Origin: Arthrobacter sp. Y-9
GTDB taxonomy: Bacteria > Actinomycetota > Actinomycetes > Actinomycetales > Micrococcaceae
Assembly (NCBI RefSeq): GCF_029690065.1
Contig: NZ_CP121463.1
Coordinates: forward strand, 2,108,001 to 2,172,000
Direction: 5' to 3'
Length of the DNA stretch: 64,000 bases
Made by a program: the position numbers and the translations under genes. The notes under the pieces were generated by a model. It was not told where the DNA came from. It ran no database searches and saw nothing but the letters and a program-made list of their open reading frames with translations. Positions 7,919 to 51,995 of the stretch are shown here, piece by piece. Position 1 is the first letter of the stretch. Each line of letters opens with the position of its first letter.

Positions 7919-7989
7919 GGGGACGTAGCTCAATGGTAGAGCCTCAGTCTTCCAAACTGATTACGCGGGTTCGATTCCCGTCGTCCCCT
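7919..7989 (+). tRNA. tRNA-Gly (anticodon TCC)
   Basis: A 71-nt cloverleaf: acceptor GGGGACG/CGTCCCC, discriminator T, anticodon loop CTTCCAA giving TCC, T-loop TTCGATT. CCA is not encoded. It is followed six bases later by a perfect terminator palindrome. Confidence 0.95.
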
Positions 7990-7995
7990 CTCCCG

Positions 7996-8023
7996 ATGCC
8001 CCGGTTCAGCTGAACCGGGGCAT
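7996..8023 (+). terminator. terminator of tRNA-Gly
   Basis: A perfect 28-nt palindrome (14-bp arms) followed directly by TTTT, a textbook intrinsic terminator. Confidence 0.9.
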
Positions 8024-8078: not shown

Positions 8079-8137
8079 TTGTGTGCTCAGTTGTTGCGGG
8101 TGTTCCAGGAGAACACCCGCAACAACTGAGCACACAA
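8079..8137. repeat. long palindromic element, copy 1
   Basis: Perfect 27-bp inverted repeat arms (8079-8105, 8111-8137) around loop CAGGA, with core TGCTCAGTTGTTGCGGGTG. A near-identical palindrome lies at 49388-49448, with a paired base change preserved in the stem. Both sit between convergent genes (here tRNA-Gly and nei). It could act as a bidirectional terminator or be a REP/MITE-like element; no T-run follows on either strand. Confidence 0.85.
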
Positions 8138-8153: not shown

Positions 8154-9044
8154 TCAGCGCTGGCAGCCCGGGCACCAGTACAGCTTGCGCCCGGCCAGTT
8201 CGCGGAGAGCGATGCTCGTGCCGCACCGCGGGCAAGGACTGCCCTGGTGCTGATAGACGGAGAACGCCTCGTGTTCCTCCGGCAGTGAACCCGACCAGGA
8301 GCCCGGCTCCGTCGTGATGATCCGGCCGTCCCGCACCCCGTCGGCCAGGAGACGCTCGGCGTCGGCCCAGAGACCAGCGGCCTCCTCAGCACTGAGGGAC
8401 GTCCCGGGCCGGGCCGGATCGATCCCGGCGCGGAACAGCAGCTCGGCGCGATAGATGTTGCCGATCCCGGCCACCACGCCCTGGTCCATCAGCAACTGTC
8501 CCACCGACGTGCGACGCGACCGCAGGCGGCGGGCGAACTCCTCGCCGTCGCGCTCATGGCCGGGAAGACCCCGGTGCAGCGGGTCCGGGCCGAGCTTGGC
8601 GCGCGCGGCCGCCACGTCAGGGCCGGTGGCGGCGTCACAGCGGCTCGCGCCCCGCAGATCCGCCCAGCCGTGCTCGCTCACGAGGCGGACGCGGACGGCG
8701 CCGACGGGCGCCGGAGGGCCCGTGTAGACGTCCTCGCCGCTGTCCGCGACTTCGCGTTCGCCGATCCGCCGCGGGGCGCCGATGCTCGAGGCGCCCGTGA
8801 AGGTCTCGTCGCCGCCGAACTCCCAGGCGCCATACAGGCCGAGGTGCACGTGCAGCCAGAGATCTCCCTCGAACCCGAGGAACAGCTGCTTCCCATGCGC
8901 CTCGGAGGAGAGCAGGCGACGCCCGTCAAGCAGGGCAGCGCCCGCGGCGAACCGCCCCTGAGGGCTGCTCACCGCCAGGCGCTGACCGGCGAAGACGTCG
9001 TGGAACTGGATGGCCAGTCGCCTGACCGAATGCCCTTCAGGCAC
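8154..9044 (-). CDS. nei: Fpg/Nei family glycosylase, endonuclease VIII type
   Basis: A 296-aa repair enzyme starting MPEGHSVRR. Pro2 is the Schiff-base nucleophile and Glu3 its partner, and the MPEG start is typical of Nei (endonuclease VIII) proteins that remove oxidised pyrimidines. The C-terminal zinc finger CPRCG...CPGCQR is intact. The GTG start at 9044 shares its G with the rpiB stop (TAGTG), implying translational coupling. Specificity is inferred from the N-terminal motif. Confidence 0.88.
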   Translation of the reverse strand: MPEGHSVRRLAIQFHDVFAGQRLAVSSPQGRFAAGAALLDGRRLLSSEAHGKQLFLGFEGDLWLHVHLGLYGAWEFGGDETFTGASSIGAPRRIGEREVADSGEDVYTGPPAPVGAVRVRLVSEHGWADLRGASRCDAATGPDVAAARAKLGPDPLHRGLPGHERDGEEFARRLRSRRTSVGQLLMDQGVVAGIGNIYRAELLFRAGIDPARPGTSLSAEEAAGLWADAERLLADGVRDGRIITTEPGSWSGSLPEEHEAFSVYQHQGSPCPRCGTSIALRELAGRKLYWCPGCQR

Positions 9045-13296: not shown

Positions 13297-13338
13297 TCCC
13301 GGCGGTGACCTGAGCGGTGGAGCCGCCACAGCATCCCC

Positions 13339-13386
13339 GACAACGGCGGGTGGGCCACTCAGGCGAGTGGCCCACCCGCCGTCGTC
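13339..13386 (+). terminator. terminator of pepN
   Basis: A 21-bp stem (13339-13359 with 13366-13386, one mismatch) with a 6-nt loop. The outer stem GACAACGGCGGG/CCCGCCGTCGTC belongs to the shared ACGACGGC hairpin family. Confidence 0.75.
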
Positions 13387-13454
13387 GTACCGCCGTCCTC
13401 ATCCGGACGGCCCGGACGGCCGAGGCAGGCATGGCGCGGCATTAGGCTGAGCAC

Positions 13455-18647: not shown

Positions 18648-18699
18648 AACGGCAAGGGCCGACGACGGCGGTCTCCCGCTGTCGTCGGCCCTTGCCGTT
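18648..18699. terminator. bidirectional terminator between tesB and ettA
   Basis: A perfect 19-bp stem (18648-18666 with 18681-18699), extendable inward by about four pairs and containing GACGAC/GTCGTC. It serves convergent genes. Confidence 0.8.
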
Positions 18700-30855: not shown

Positions 30856-30882
30856 ACCAGGGCTGCGGCCACCACCCTCCGA

Positions 30883-30925
30883 CAGGACGACGACGGCGCG
30901 CCACCGGCGCGCCGTCGTCGTCCTG
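30883..30925. terminator. bidirectional terminator between GT87 and MptB-like genes
   Basis: A perfect 20-bp stem (30883-30902 with 30906-30925) with loop ACC, containing GACGACGACGGCG. The genes on either side converge. Confidence 0.85.
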
Positions 30926-30992
30926 TTCCGTCTCCCGGCGCCACATCCCGGGCCGGGAGGGGCGCCGCCCGCTCAGGCGCGCGCTGTGCAGC

Positions 30993-43001: not shown

Positions 43002-43191
43002 TCAAGGAACCTTTCTCTTCTGCGCGCGACGTCGGGCGCAGTTCGCCACCGGGGTTCAGGGCATGAAAAAACCGCCTAGGCGAACGCAGGCCCGGCGGGG
43101 TGAACAACAGCGTTCGTGATCAGTTTATCGTCCCCGGGACCGCCCCCGGGACGGGACTCCGGTGACATCAGTCACAAACGGATCGATGAGT

Positions 43192-43570
43192 GGACGGGTT
43201 GGCCTGTGAGCCGGGTTCTGTCAGCCGCGCCCGTTACCGGAGGCGGCGTAGCGATCATCCATCTAGGACCACTGTTGCCAGTGGCCTCAAGCGGCCTACC
43301 CGGATGCTCGGGCGAGCAGCCCTCGAACACATCCTGTCTGGCCTTGCTCCAGGTGGGGTTTACCGAGCCTCCCCGGTCACCCGGGGAGCTGGTGGTCTCT
43401 TACACCACCGTTTCACCCTTACCCCGCGCCGAGGCGCGTGGCGGTCTGTTTTCTGTGGCACTGGCCTGCGGGTCACCCCGAGTGGGCGTTACCCACCACC
43501 CTGCTCTGCGGAGCCCGGACTTTCCTCGGTGACGCCGGAGCGTCAACGCGATCGCCCAGCCAACCCGTCC
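43192..43570 (-). ncRNA. rnpB: RNase P RNA, type A
   Basis: A 379-nt catalytic RNA. The ends pair to form P1 (GGACGGGTTGGC with GCCAACCCGTCC). Conserved blocks include GAGGAAAGTCCGGGCTCC near the 5' side, ACAGAAAACAGACCGCC, GGTAAGGGTGAAACGGTG, and AACCCGGCTCACAGGCC before the 3' end. TAGAAT (43578-43583, reverse) stands seven bases before the 5' end as its -10 box. Confidence 0.96.
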
Positions 43571-48851: not shown

Positions 48852-49376
48852 ATGAGAACTCTGAAAACATCCACCGTGACCGGCCGCGCTCGGAAAGTGG
48901 CGGTCCTCGGACTGGCCGGCGCAGCCCTTCTGCCATTGAGCGCCTGCAGCATCACTTCCCTGGCCGACAATTACGACAAGCGGGAGAGCCACGACTGGCC
49001 CCGCGGCGCCGAGGCCACGAAGGACGGCGTGGCCCCCGCCTGGATCCCGGCCGGAGCCACGGACGTCCGTGAGGTCATCCGGACCACCGGCGCCGAACGG
49101 ATCCTGACGTACTCCGGAGACGTGTCCGGTCTCCCCGCTCAGTGCAAGGCCGTTCCCTCCGGCGCCGCACCGAGCCCTCAGCCGGACAACGAGGACCGCC
49201 GGACGGCCGACGACTTCATCTCGGAGGCCACCCTCTCCGCCGACTGGTGGCCGGCGGGCCAGGAGCGCAAGGCGAGCCACTACTGCGGCAAGTGGTGGGT
49301 GTCCGCGGCGAACGGGACCGTCTACGCGTTCGCTCCGGAGATGAAGACGATCGCCCGGCACCTCGGCAAGGACTGA
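48852..49376 (+). CDS. putative lipoprotein of unknown function
   Basis: A 174-aa exported protein. An n-region with Lys/Arg, a hydrophobic core and lipobox LSAC (Cys32) indicate lipidation. The mature part has three further cysteines (AQCKA, HYCGKWW), and GTVYAFAPE near the end. No known domain. ATG 48852 follows TAGCGT (48839-48844) by seven bases, a leaderless mRNA independent of cysE. It faces gnd across the second palindrome. Confidence 0.65.
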   Translation: MRTLKTSTVTGRARKVAVLGLAGAALLPLSACSITSLADNYDKRESHDWPRGAEATKDGVAPAWIPAGATDVREVIRTTGAERILTYSGDVSGLPAQCKAVPSGAAPSPQPDNEDRRTADDFISEATLSADWWPAGQERKASHYCGKWWVSAANGTVYAFAPEMKTIARHLGKD

Positions 49377-49387
49377 CCGCGCCTCCC

Positions 49388-49448
49388 GTTGCGTGCTCAG
49401 TTGTTGCGGGTGTTCACGCCGAATACCCGCAACAACTGAGCACGCAAC
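49388..49448. repeat. long palindromic element, copy 2
   Basis: 28-bp arms (49388-49415, 49421-49448) with one G-U pair and loop ACGCC. It shares the core TGCTCAGTTGTTGCGGGTG with 8079-8137. Where copy 1 has T/A at one stem pair, copy 2 has C/G, so pairing is conserved. It sits between convergent genes, as does copy 1. Confidence 0.85.
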
Positions 49449-49458
49449 GCGATGAAGC

Positions 49459-49498
49459 ACGACGGCGGCCCCCACCGGAAGGTGAGGGCCGCCGTCGT
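49459..49498 (-). terminator. terminator of gnd
   Basis: A 13-bp outer stem ACGACGGCGGCCC (49459-49471, 49486-49498) with an inner four-pair extension and GGAA loop, 13 nt past the gnd stop. Confidence 0.75.
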
Positions 49499-49511: not shown

Positions 49512-50948
49512 TCAGTGGGTGTCGACCGCGCTGACCTCGGTGCGGTCACCGCTCCACTGGGTGTGGAACGTGCCCTCTTCATCCACGCGCCCGTAGGTGT
49601 GGGCGCCGAAGAGGTCGCGCTGGCCCTGGATCAGGGCGGCGGGCAGGCGCTTGCGGCGCAGTCCGTCGTAGTAGGCCAGCGAGGAGGAGAACACCGGGAC
49701 CGGGATGCCCAGCTGAACGGCGGTGGCCACCACACGGCGCCAGGCCGGGACGGCCTCGCCGACGGACTTCGCGAACGCCGGGGCGAACAGGAGGTTCTCC
49801 GGCTTGGCGTCGCCTTCGTAGGCGGCCATGATGTCCTTGAGCAGCTCGGCGCGGATGATGCAGCCGGCGCGCCACAGGGAGGCGATCTCGTCCAGCTTGA
49901 GGTCCCAGCCGTACTCCTTGGCGGCGCTGGTCAGCATGTCCAGGCCCTGGGCGTAGCTCACGAGCTTGGAGGCGTAGAGAGCCTGGCGGACGTCCTCCAC
50001 GAAGTTCTCGGGAAGCGCCACCTCGATCTCGTGGCCTTCCAGGGTCTCCTGGGCGATCGCGCGCTGACCACGCTGCGAGGAGATGCCGCGGGCGAACACG
50101 GATTCGGCGATGCCGGAAACCGGCGATCCCAGATCCAGCGCGGACTGGACCGTCCAGCGGCCGGTGCCCTTCTGTCCGGCGGAATCGACCACGACGTCCA
50201 CGAACGGCTTGCCGGTCTTGGCGTCCACGTGGCCGAGCACCTCGGCGGAGATCTCGATCAGGAAGGAGGACAGCTCGCCCTTGTTCCACTCTTCGAAGAT
50301 CTTGGCCTGCTCCGCGGGCTCGATGCCGGCGGCGCTGCGCAGCAGGTCGTAGGCCTCACCGATGACCTGCATGTCGGCGTATTCGATGCCGTTGTGGACC
50401 ATCTTGACGAAGTGGCCGGCGCCGTCGGTGCCGATCCAGGCACAGCAGGGCTCGCCGTCCACATGAGCGGAGATCTTCTCCAGCAGCGGGCCGAGAGCCT
50501 CGTAGGACTCCTTGGAGCCGCCGGGCATGATGGACGGGCCGTTGAGCGCGCCTTCCTCGCCACCGGAGACGCCGACGCCCACGAAGTGGAGGCCCTTCTC
50601 CGCCAGCGCGGCTTCGCGGCGGCGGGTGTCCGTGTAGTGGGAGTTGCCGGCGTCGATCACGATGTCGCCCTCATCCAGCAGCGGGACGAGCTGGTCCACG
50701 ACGGCGTCGACCGGAGCACCCGCCTTCACCATGATGAGCACGCGGCGCGGCTTTTCGAGCGAGTCGACGAGTTCCTGGAGGCTCTCCGTGCGGACGAAGT
50801 CGCCTTCGTCGCCGTGGGCGGCGAGCAGGGCGTCCGTCTTCTCAACGGAGCGGTTGTGCAGAGCGACCGTGAAGCCGTTGCGGGCGAGGTTCCGGGCCAG
50901 ATTGGCCCCCATGACGGCGAGACCGGTGACACCGATTTGTGCAGGCAT
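49512..50948 (-). CDS. gnd: 6-phosphogluconate dehydrogenase (decarboxylating)
   Basis: A 478-aa enzyme of the oxidative pentose-phosphate pathway forming ribulose 5-phosphate, CO2 and NADPH. The N-terminus has GVTGLAVMGANLARNLARNGF (dinucleotide site, NADP type). The active-site segment KMVHNGIEYADMQ carries the catalytic Lys, and the C-terminal helical domain is full length. ATG 50948 has GGAG. It is divergent from a GntR regulator, its probable controller. Confidence 0.95.
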   Translation of the reverse strand: MPAQIGVTGLAVMGANLARNLARNGFTVALHNRSVEKTDALLAAHGDEGDFVRTESLQELVDSLEKPRRVLIMVKAGAPVDAVVDQLVPLLDEGDIVIDAGNSHYTDTRRREAALAEKGLHFVGVGVSGGEEGALNGPSIMPGGSKESYEALGPLLEKISAHVDGEPCCAWIGTDGAGHFVKMVHNGIEYADMQVIGEAYDLLRSAAGIEPAEQAKIFEEWNKGELSSFLIEISAEVLGHVDAKTGKPFVDVVVDSAGQKGTGRWTVQSALDLGSPVSGIAESVFARGISSQRGQRAIAQETLEGHEIEVALPENFVEDVRQALYASKLVSYAQGLDMLTSAAKEYGWDLKLDEIASLWRAGCIIRAELLKDIMAAYEGDAKPENLLFAPAFAKSVGEAVPAWRRVVATAVQLGIPVPVFSSSLAYYDGLRRKRLPAALIQGQRDLFGAHTYGRVDEEGTFHTQWSGDRTEVSAVDTH

Positions 50949-51953: not shown

Positions 51954-51995
51954 ACGACGGCGGGGCCGGCCCCGAAGGACCGGCCCCGCCGTCGT
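51954..51995. terminator. bidirectional terminator between gntR and the GlsB-type gene
   Basis: A 16-bp stem ACGACGGCGGGGCCGG (51954-51969) with 51980-51995. Part of the shared ACGACGGC hairpin family. Confidence 0.8.

Follow-up and report, generated by a model that had tools for sequence, protein, structure and literature searches.

Dispersed palindromes of an Arthrobacter genome as probable solo ends of palindrome-bracketed nuclease elements

The two long palindromes of the window, i.e., of the whole stretch of 64,000 nucleotides analysed here (C1:2,108,001-2,172,000 of genome G000, a single contig of 3,573,060 bases), are probably solo ends of palindrome-bracketed nuclease elements of a compact mobile type, as judged from sequence comparison. 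Together with their own nuclease, such palindromes look like an undescribed kind of mobile element, the mobility of which we infer. A complete element would consist of a palindrome, a spacer of usually ~45-100 nt, one ORF of ~307-330 aa and a further palindrome.

The palindromes of the window and of the genome

Both palindromes described in the initial annotation were re-found by an inverted-repeat search and correspond to C1:2,116,079-2,116,137 (copy 1) and C1:2,157,389-2,157,447 (copy 2) of the genome (Table 1). The arms of copy 1 (8079-8105 and 8111-8137) pair at 27 of 27 positions around a 5-nt loop; those of copy 2 (49384-49415 and 49421-49452), likewise with a 5-nt loop, match to 94% over 32 nt. 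The common core that had been reported, TGCTCAGTTGTTGCGGGTG, occurs in each of the four arms, with a single mismatch that lies in the 3' arm of copy 2, and none of 100 shuffles gave four core matches. The compensated change from T-A to C-G between the two copies also proved to be real, affecting pair 4 of the 59-nt unit. Both sites displayed RNA folding z-scores of -11.3 to -11.9 on both strands and lie, as had been noted, between convergent genes, namely those for tRNA-Gly and an Fpg-type glycosylase at 8079, and the 159-aa ORF and the 6-phosphogluconate dehydrogenase gene at 49389.

Table 1. Features around the two palindromes, in window coordinates
Feature	Position	Strand	Remark
tRNA-Gly gene	7919..7990	+	left neighbour of copy 1
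Separate palindrome just 3' of tRNA-Gly	7996..8023		followed by a short T run; inverted-repeat search and sequence
Solo palindrome copy 1	8079..8137		59-bp unit, 27-bp perfect arms, 5-nt loop
Fpg/Nei-type DNA glycosylase gene	8154..9044	-	stop codon 16 nt from copy 1
159-aa ORF	48897..49376	+	no Pfam match; adjoins copy 2 on the left
Solo palindrome copy 2	49388..49448		59-bp unit 49389-49447
Separate GC-rich hairpin adjoining copy 2	49459..49498		inverted-repeat search
6-phosphogluconate dehydrogenase gene	49512..50948	-	right neighbour of copy 2

The separate palindrome behind the tRNA gene is probably the terminator of tRNA-Gly; a terminator scan flagged neither this palindrome nor anything at the two solo copies. 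Strong hairpins with an CGACGGCGG-type arm were seen at 13338-13387, 18648-18699, 30882-30926 and 51954-51995 as well as beside copy 2 (49459-49498), and are probably ordinary GC-rich terminators. An Rfam search of the window returned five matches, none at either palindrome, and showed a class A RNase P RNA at 43191-43567 on the minus strand (324 bits). Among phage records, 12 gave short weak matches to the palindrome.

Arms that match recur throughout the genome, and almost all of them form inverted pairs at a distance of 29 bases. Writing out 31 copies revealed a common 59-bp unit with 23 paired positions and a variable 13-nt centre, and a covariance model built from these copies (R1) located 33 places in 3.57 Mb, each on both strands, which bears out the forecast of dozens per genome; two further matches were found on one strand only, with an E value of 0.86. 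Of 713 pair cells in the 31 copies, 97.2% are paired, and their covariation score was reached by none of 500 shuffles. Four pairs are changed on both sides, which 10 of the 500 shuffles matched.

Rather than being scattered inside genes and divergent promoters, the 31 classified copies fall into 12 convergent, 15 tandem and 4 divergent gaps, with none inside a gene; these classes consider protein genes only and leave 2 of the 33 places unclassified, and with the tRNA included the 8079 copy becomes convergent. Most copies are found shortly downstream of stop codons, and convergent gaps are over-used (12 of 31 versus 4.0-5.5 expected; p 0.006 by number and 6e-5 by length against 101 gaps of control DNA). 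None of the 62 strand ends carries a T-run (at least 5 T in 10 nt) after the hairpin. Target-site duplications at the 31 copies were represented by no match at 4-8 nt and one at 3 nt (0.6 expected), and the flanks vary, with no foot tetranucleotide (e.g., GTAG) kept on the 5' side of the hairpin. Directly upstream of three full copies (L038, L043 and L056), there are partial extra arms (TGCTCAGT...), perhaps remnants of tandem or nested copies.

The bracketed nuclease-like gene and its palindrome dialects

The G000 copies at C1:3,412,827 and 3,413,906 bracket one gene, ~1.2 Mb beyond the window, in a unit spanning C1:3,412,827-3,413,964. Since the same palindrome brackets a nuclease-like gene, two options offered earlier, a REP-like nuclease target and a MITE remnant, pointed in the right direction, while a strict REP/RAYT system fails, the Y1 transposase being absent from the genome.

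The bracketed ORF encodes 307 aa with a weak match to Pfam REase_MTES_1575. In 26 full-length members of the family, S201, E204, R208, D237, G251 and R266 are invariant, and the E, R, D, G and R residues remain so in 67 of 67 members. Pfam matches among the 26 comprise MTES_1575 (PF18741, E 0.001) in 17, DUF559 in three and AbiEi models in two, those of our own member falling below the gathering score. The AbiEi match in PADLOC is weak, a search of NCBIfam with the bracketed protein gave no match, and neither Pfam nor NCBIfam assigned the ORF to a transposase family. In the PDB, the endonuclease-like protein 3hrl matches best (E 0.0055), followed by chance-like rows. These weak matches suggest an AbiEi-like first part and a Vsr/DUF559-like endonuclease last part, and the protein is likely to be a Vsr/DUF559-like endonuclease.

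In the family sample, 116 of 149 genomes have homologues, many of them several; in the order sample, the figure is 150 of 198. Of the family homologues, 70 nuclease loci were fetched, comprising the best of 30 genomes and 40 further paralogues, and 68 were analysed, L212 and L213 being left out for want of a local tblastn match and L209, which has an internal stop, being kept. At a hairpin score of at least 16, 34 of the 68 loci have hairpins on both sides, 15 on one and 19 on none, compared with 3 of 178 control genes with both (Fisher 2e-19), the controls being called by a simple codon-usage script from two related genomes only, G000 and G003. The right hairpin of L183 is visible on reading the locus and was missed in this count. 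Both-sided hairpins were also seen at 13 of the 26 best loci outside the genus, and, with the loci clustered at 60% identity, in 20 of 44 clusters judged by the first member and in 22 judged by any member. The left hairpin mostly ends ~45-100 nt upstream of the likely start codon, and the right one, at loci with both, starts anywhere from 51 nt upstream to 89 nt downstream of the stop. Outside the family, 2 of 20 loci revealed both hairpins and 5 one, and of 5 further family loci 1 had both, 1 had one and 3 had none; many family members thus lack the bracket, which the other families of the order possess only rarely. Matches to the nuclease were found in three plasmid records, all from Arthrobacter, and in one phage record (34% identity over 76%); none was confirmed in viral contigs in a search that finds close relatives only.

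The palindromes around different nucleases differ in sequence, and these dialects follow the gene. Left and right arms of one gene score at least 0.8 in 28 of 39 cases, a value reached in 0 of 62 comparisons between different genes within a genome, and the similarity of nucleases correlates with that of palindromes (N 39, rho 0.32, p 0.001). Arms at least 0.75 alike were found in 7 of 7 pairs with a nuclease identity of at least 75%, in 6 of 13 pairs at 60-75%, and in 0 of 721 pairs below. Nucleases of different genera can have a common dialect, exemplified by L185 (G000), L218 (G001) and L180 (G134) with arms 92-94% alike and proteins 61-78% identical, and these comparisons show that dialect follows the nuclease rather than the genome.

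In G000 itself, six of seven nuclease loci are bracketed, i.e., the one described above and five paralogues. Four of the five other dialects have copies beyond their flanking pairs, at a minimum of 14 places for L187, 12 for L184 (one partial), 5 for L183, 1 for L185 and 0 for L186, all lower bounds because 40 of 72 candidates were scored. Outside the genus, 8 of 18 solo loci from 10 genomes with R1-type copies best match a bracketed nuclease of their own genome; of the other 10, one fits the nuclease of another genome better and nine, from four genomes, have no home match among the loci read, which cover part of the nuclease hits of the 10 genomes.

Conservation and change in related genomes

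A scan with R1, the stricter filters of which lose weak matches, gave hits in 36 of the 149 family genomes, representing 13 of 32 genera. A sequence-pattern search of named records added 12 stretches with a related palindrome, from Paenarthrobacter, Arthrobacter, Acaricomes, Leifsonia, Microbacterium, Leucobacter and Okibacterium, seven genera which we take to represent Micrococcaceae and Microbacteriaceae. In the related genomes read, the palindrome sequence differs per genome at constant geometry, each genome keeping its own version by paired changes in both arms.

Comparison of flanks identified G000 orthologues for all 18 copies read in G002, for 24 of the 25 in G003 and for 14 of the 27 in G001, three of the 14 resting on one flank only; both window copies have an orthologue in G003, that of copy 1 with a compensated change at pair 5. 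At the orthologous sites, identity to G002 and G003 amounts to 97-98% for the outer and inner paired arms, versus 85% and 67% for the loops and 67% and 61% for the flanks, the flank values being underestimates as they were compared without gaps. One-sided changes outnumber compensated ones by 17 to 1 (G002) and 27 to 3 (G003), and G001 displayed 35 compensated, 38 one-sided and 9 other double changes, including the same T-A to G-C compensated change at pair 17 in 14 of 14 sites. The selection on structure proposed from the two window copies is therefore supported as far as maintenance is concerned, and such a change, made in concert at fixed places, points to a partner acting in trans or to conversion among the copies.

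At the sites of L032:3565, L040, L043 and L045, no copy is present in G003, and the joints there are imprecise. A relative of the palindrome that is only 55 nt long and has GCCGTGG in its core (G000 C1:321,056-321,110, L230; G003 C1:89,492-89,546, L136) is nearly identical in both species, whereas ordinary solos change their loops. In G003, ~4.6 kb of additional genes that G000 and G002 lack are located directly beside an R1-type palindrome (L223, C1:3,167,900-3,173,565).

The unit of change between genomes is the interval from palindrome to palindrome, as indicated by a swap, an occupied and a solo state, and an inversion, be it by insertion or loss. A cassette swap distinguishes L184 of G000 from L219 of G003, identity being 94-100%, mostly 97-100%, outside and 51-69% inside, breaking within ~20-30 nt of the palindromes, the dialects of which differ. 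The L186 unit is present in G000, G002 and G003, and G001 has one decayed palindrome of the same dialect at the orthologous place. Elsewhere, two copies 1.4 kb apart with other cargo between them in G000 and G002, where the interval itself differs partly, correspond to one in G001. At the L187 locus of G001, the interior is opposite to the flanks, with palindromes at the bounds of the inversion (BLAST).

Known systems and alternative readings

Several known systems resemble parts of this arrangement. As in insertion sequences with MITEs, one ORF lies between inverted ends and many copies lack the ORF, but here each end is a complete palindrome, no target-site duplication is seen, and the ORF falls outside the transposase families of Pfam and NCBIfam. 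Integron attC sites share hairpins adjoining stop codons and cassette-like exchange; their arms are imperfect, whereas ours are perfect, and the terminal letters run opposite to the attC motif. The closest arrangement to compare is the REPtron, in which, according to the accessible part of its description, REP/BIME sequences are associated with TnpA_REP (RAYT) (PMC6006769): one gene per repeat type is bracketed by its own repeat, extragenic copies are dispersed, several types occur per genome and the distribution is patchy, yet the enzyme differs here. RAYT, a Y1/HUH transposase, was rejected as a partner, PF01797 being found in none of G000-G003 and missing from 12 of 14 genomes tested. REPs measure 20-40 bp (PMC3733652, in excerpt), unlike the present 59-bp unit, which has near-perfect arms of 23-31 bp and lacks a constant foot tetranucleotide. 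The last part of the bracketed protein is like restriction endonuclease domains of the MTES_1575/DUF559/Vsr type; MTES_1575 has been described as a novel Vsr REase and, unlike our protein, is itself large and multi-domain, and the string "palindrom" does not occur in the accessible text of its description (PMC3710099). A 2025 survey of REPs names one Arthrobacter in a table, and its accessible text contains none of the words transposase, endonuclease and DUF559 (PMC12306157). Among the matches listed in a search of the open literature, with few subscription papers and no preprints, none dealt with a palindrome-bracketed DUF559 or Vsr-like gene.

It is rather unlikely that the palindromes are host-useful bidirectional terminators or 3'-end stabilisers, with the nuclease genes merely using the same hairpins, although their position behind stop codons, very stable folds and arms far better conserved than the flanks (the latter compared without gaps) would agree with such a role. 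The terminator proposed in the initial annotation is weakened by the missing T-runs (0 of 62), the negative scan and the four copies in divergent gaps, and neither a genome-wide dialect nor a match to one nuclease paralogue would be needed for it. The over-use of convergent gaps, however, would fit some 3'-end role. Equally doubtful are operators, i.e., palindromes bound by the AbiEi-like part as a regulator, with flanking copies for autoregulation and solos as its regulon. The weak AbiEi matches and a dialect that tracks the protein fit this, as does the autoregulation of AbiEi through inverted repeats (PMC7319586, from the accessible part), but most sites stand behind genes instead of before them, the second bracket lies at the nuclease stop codon, and the cassette swap, solo state and inversion are left unexplained. 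Far less probable still are inert repeats kept perfect, with no partner, by repair alone. Quasi-palindrome repair can transfer a change between the two arms, and some genomes have solos with no matching nuclease among the loci read; such repair would not, however, produce identical letters at separate sites, as seen in 14 of 14, nor dialects matching nuclease genes.

If the window palindromes are solo ends of nuclease elements, an active nuclease would recognise its own palindrome as duplex, cruciform or single-strand hairpin and cut there, and repair or recombination between palindromes could then insert, flip, exchange or remove the gene, with solos as its leftovers. Arms would stay matched because nuclease and palindromes evolve together, as we propose. 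Counting against this reading are the 34 of 68 nuclease loci without both-sided hairpins, the rarity of the bracket outside the family, the four genomes with solos and no home match among the loci read, the weak nuclease assignment, the imprecise presence or absence of solos, the absent target-site duplication, and the conservation of arms at solos, which would be unexpected of passive relics. More tentatively, palindrome-bracketed Vsr-like nucleases may form a separate mobile class, the palindrome being recognition site, element end and vacant attachment site in one. The nuclease gene would home into solos of its own dialect, cassettes would swap and flip, nuclease and dialect would co-diversify as several independent pairs per genome, and solos would be vacant or vacated homing sites. 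If true, this class would answer the REP/RAYT puzzle of many palindromes and one matching nuclease a second time, with an unrelated enzyme. A common group of uncharacterised DUF559/AbiEi-type proteins would thereby gain a suggested function, and the natural series of nuclease-dialect pairs would make palindrome recognition directly testable.
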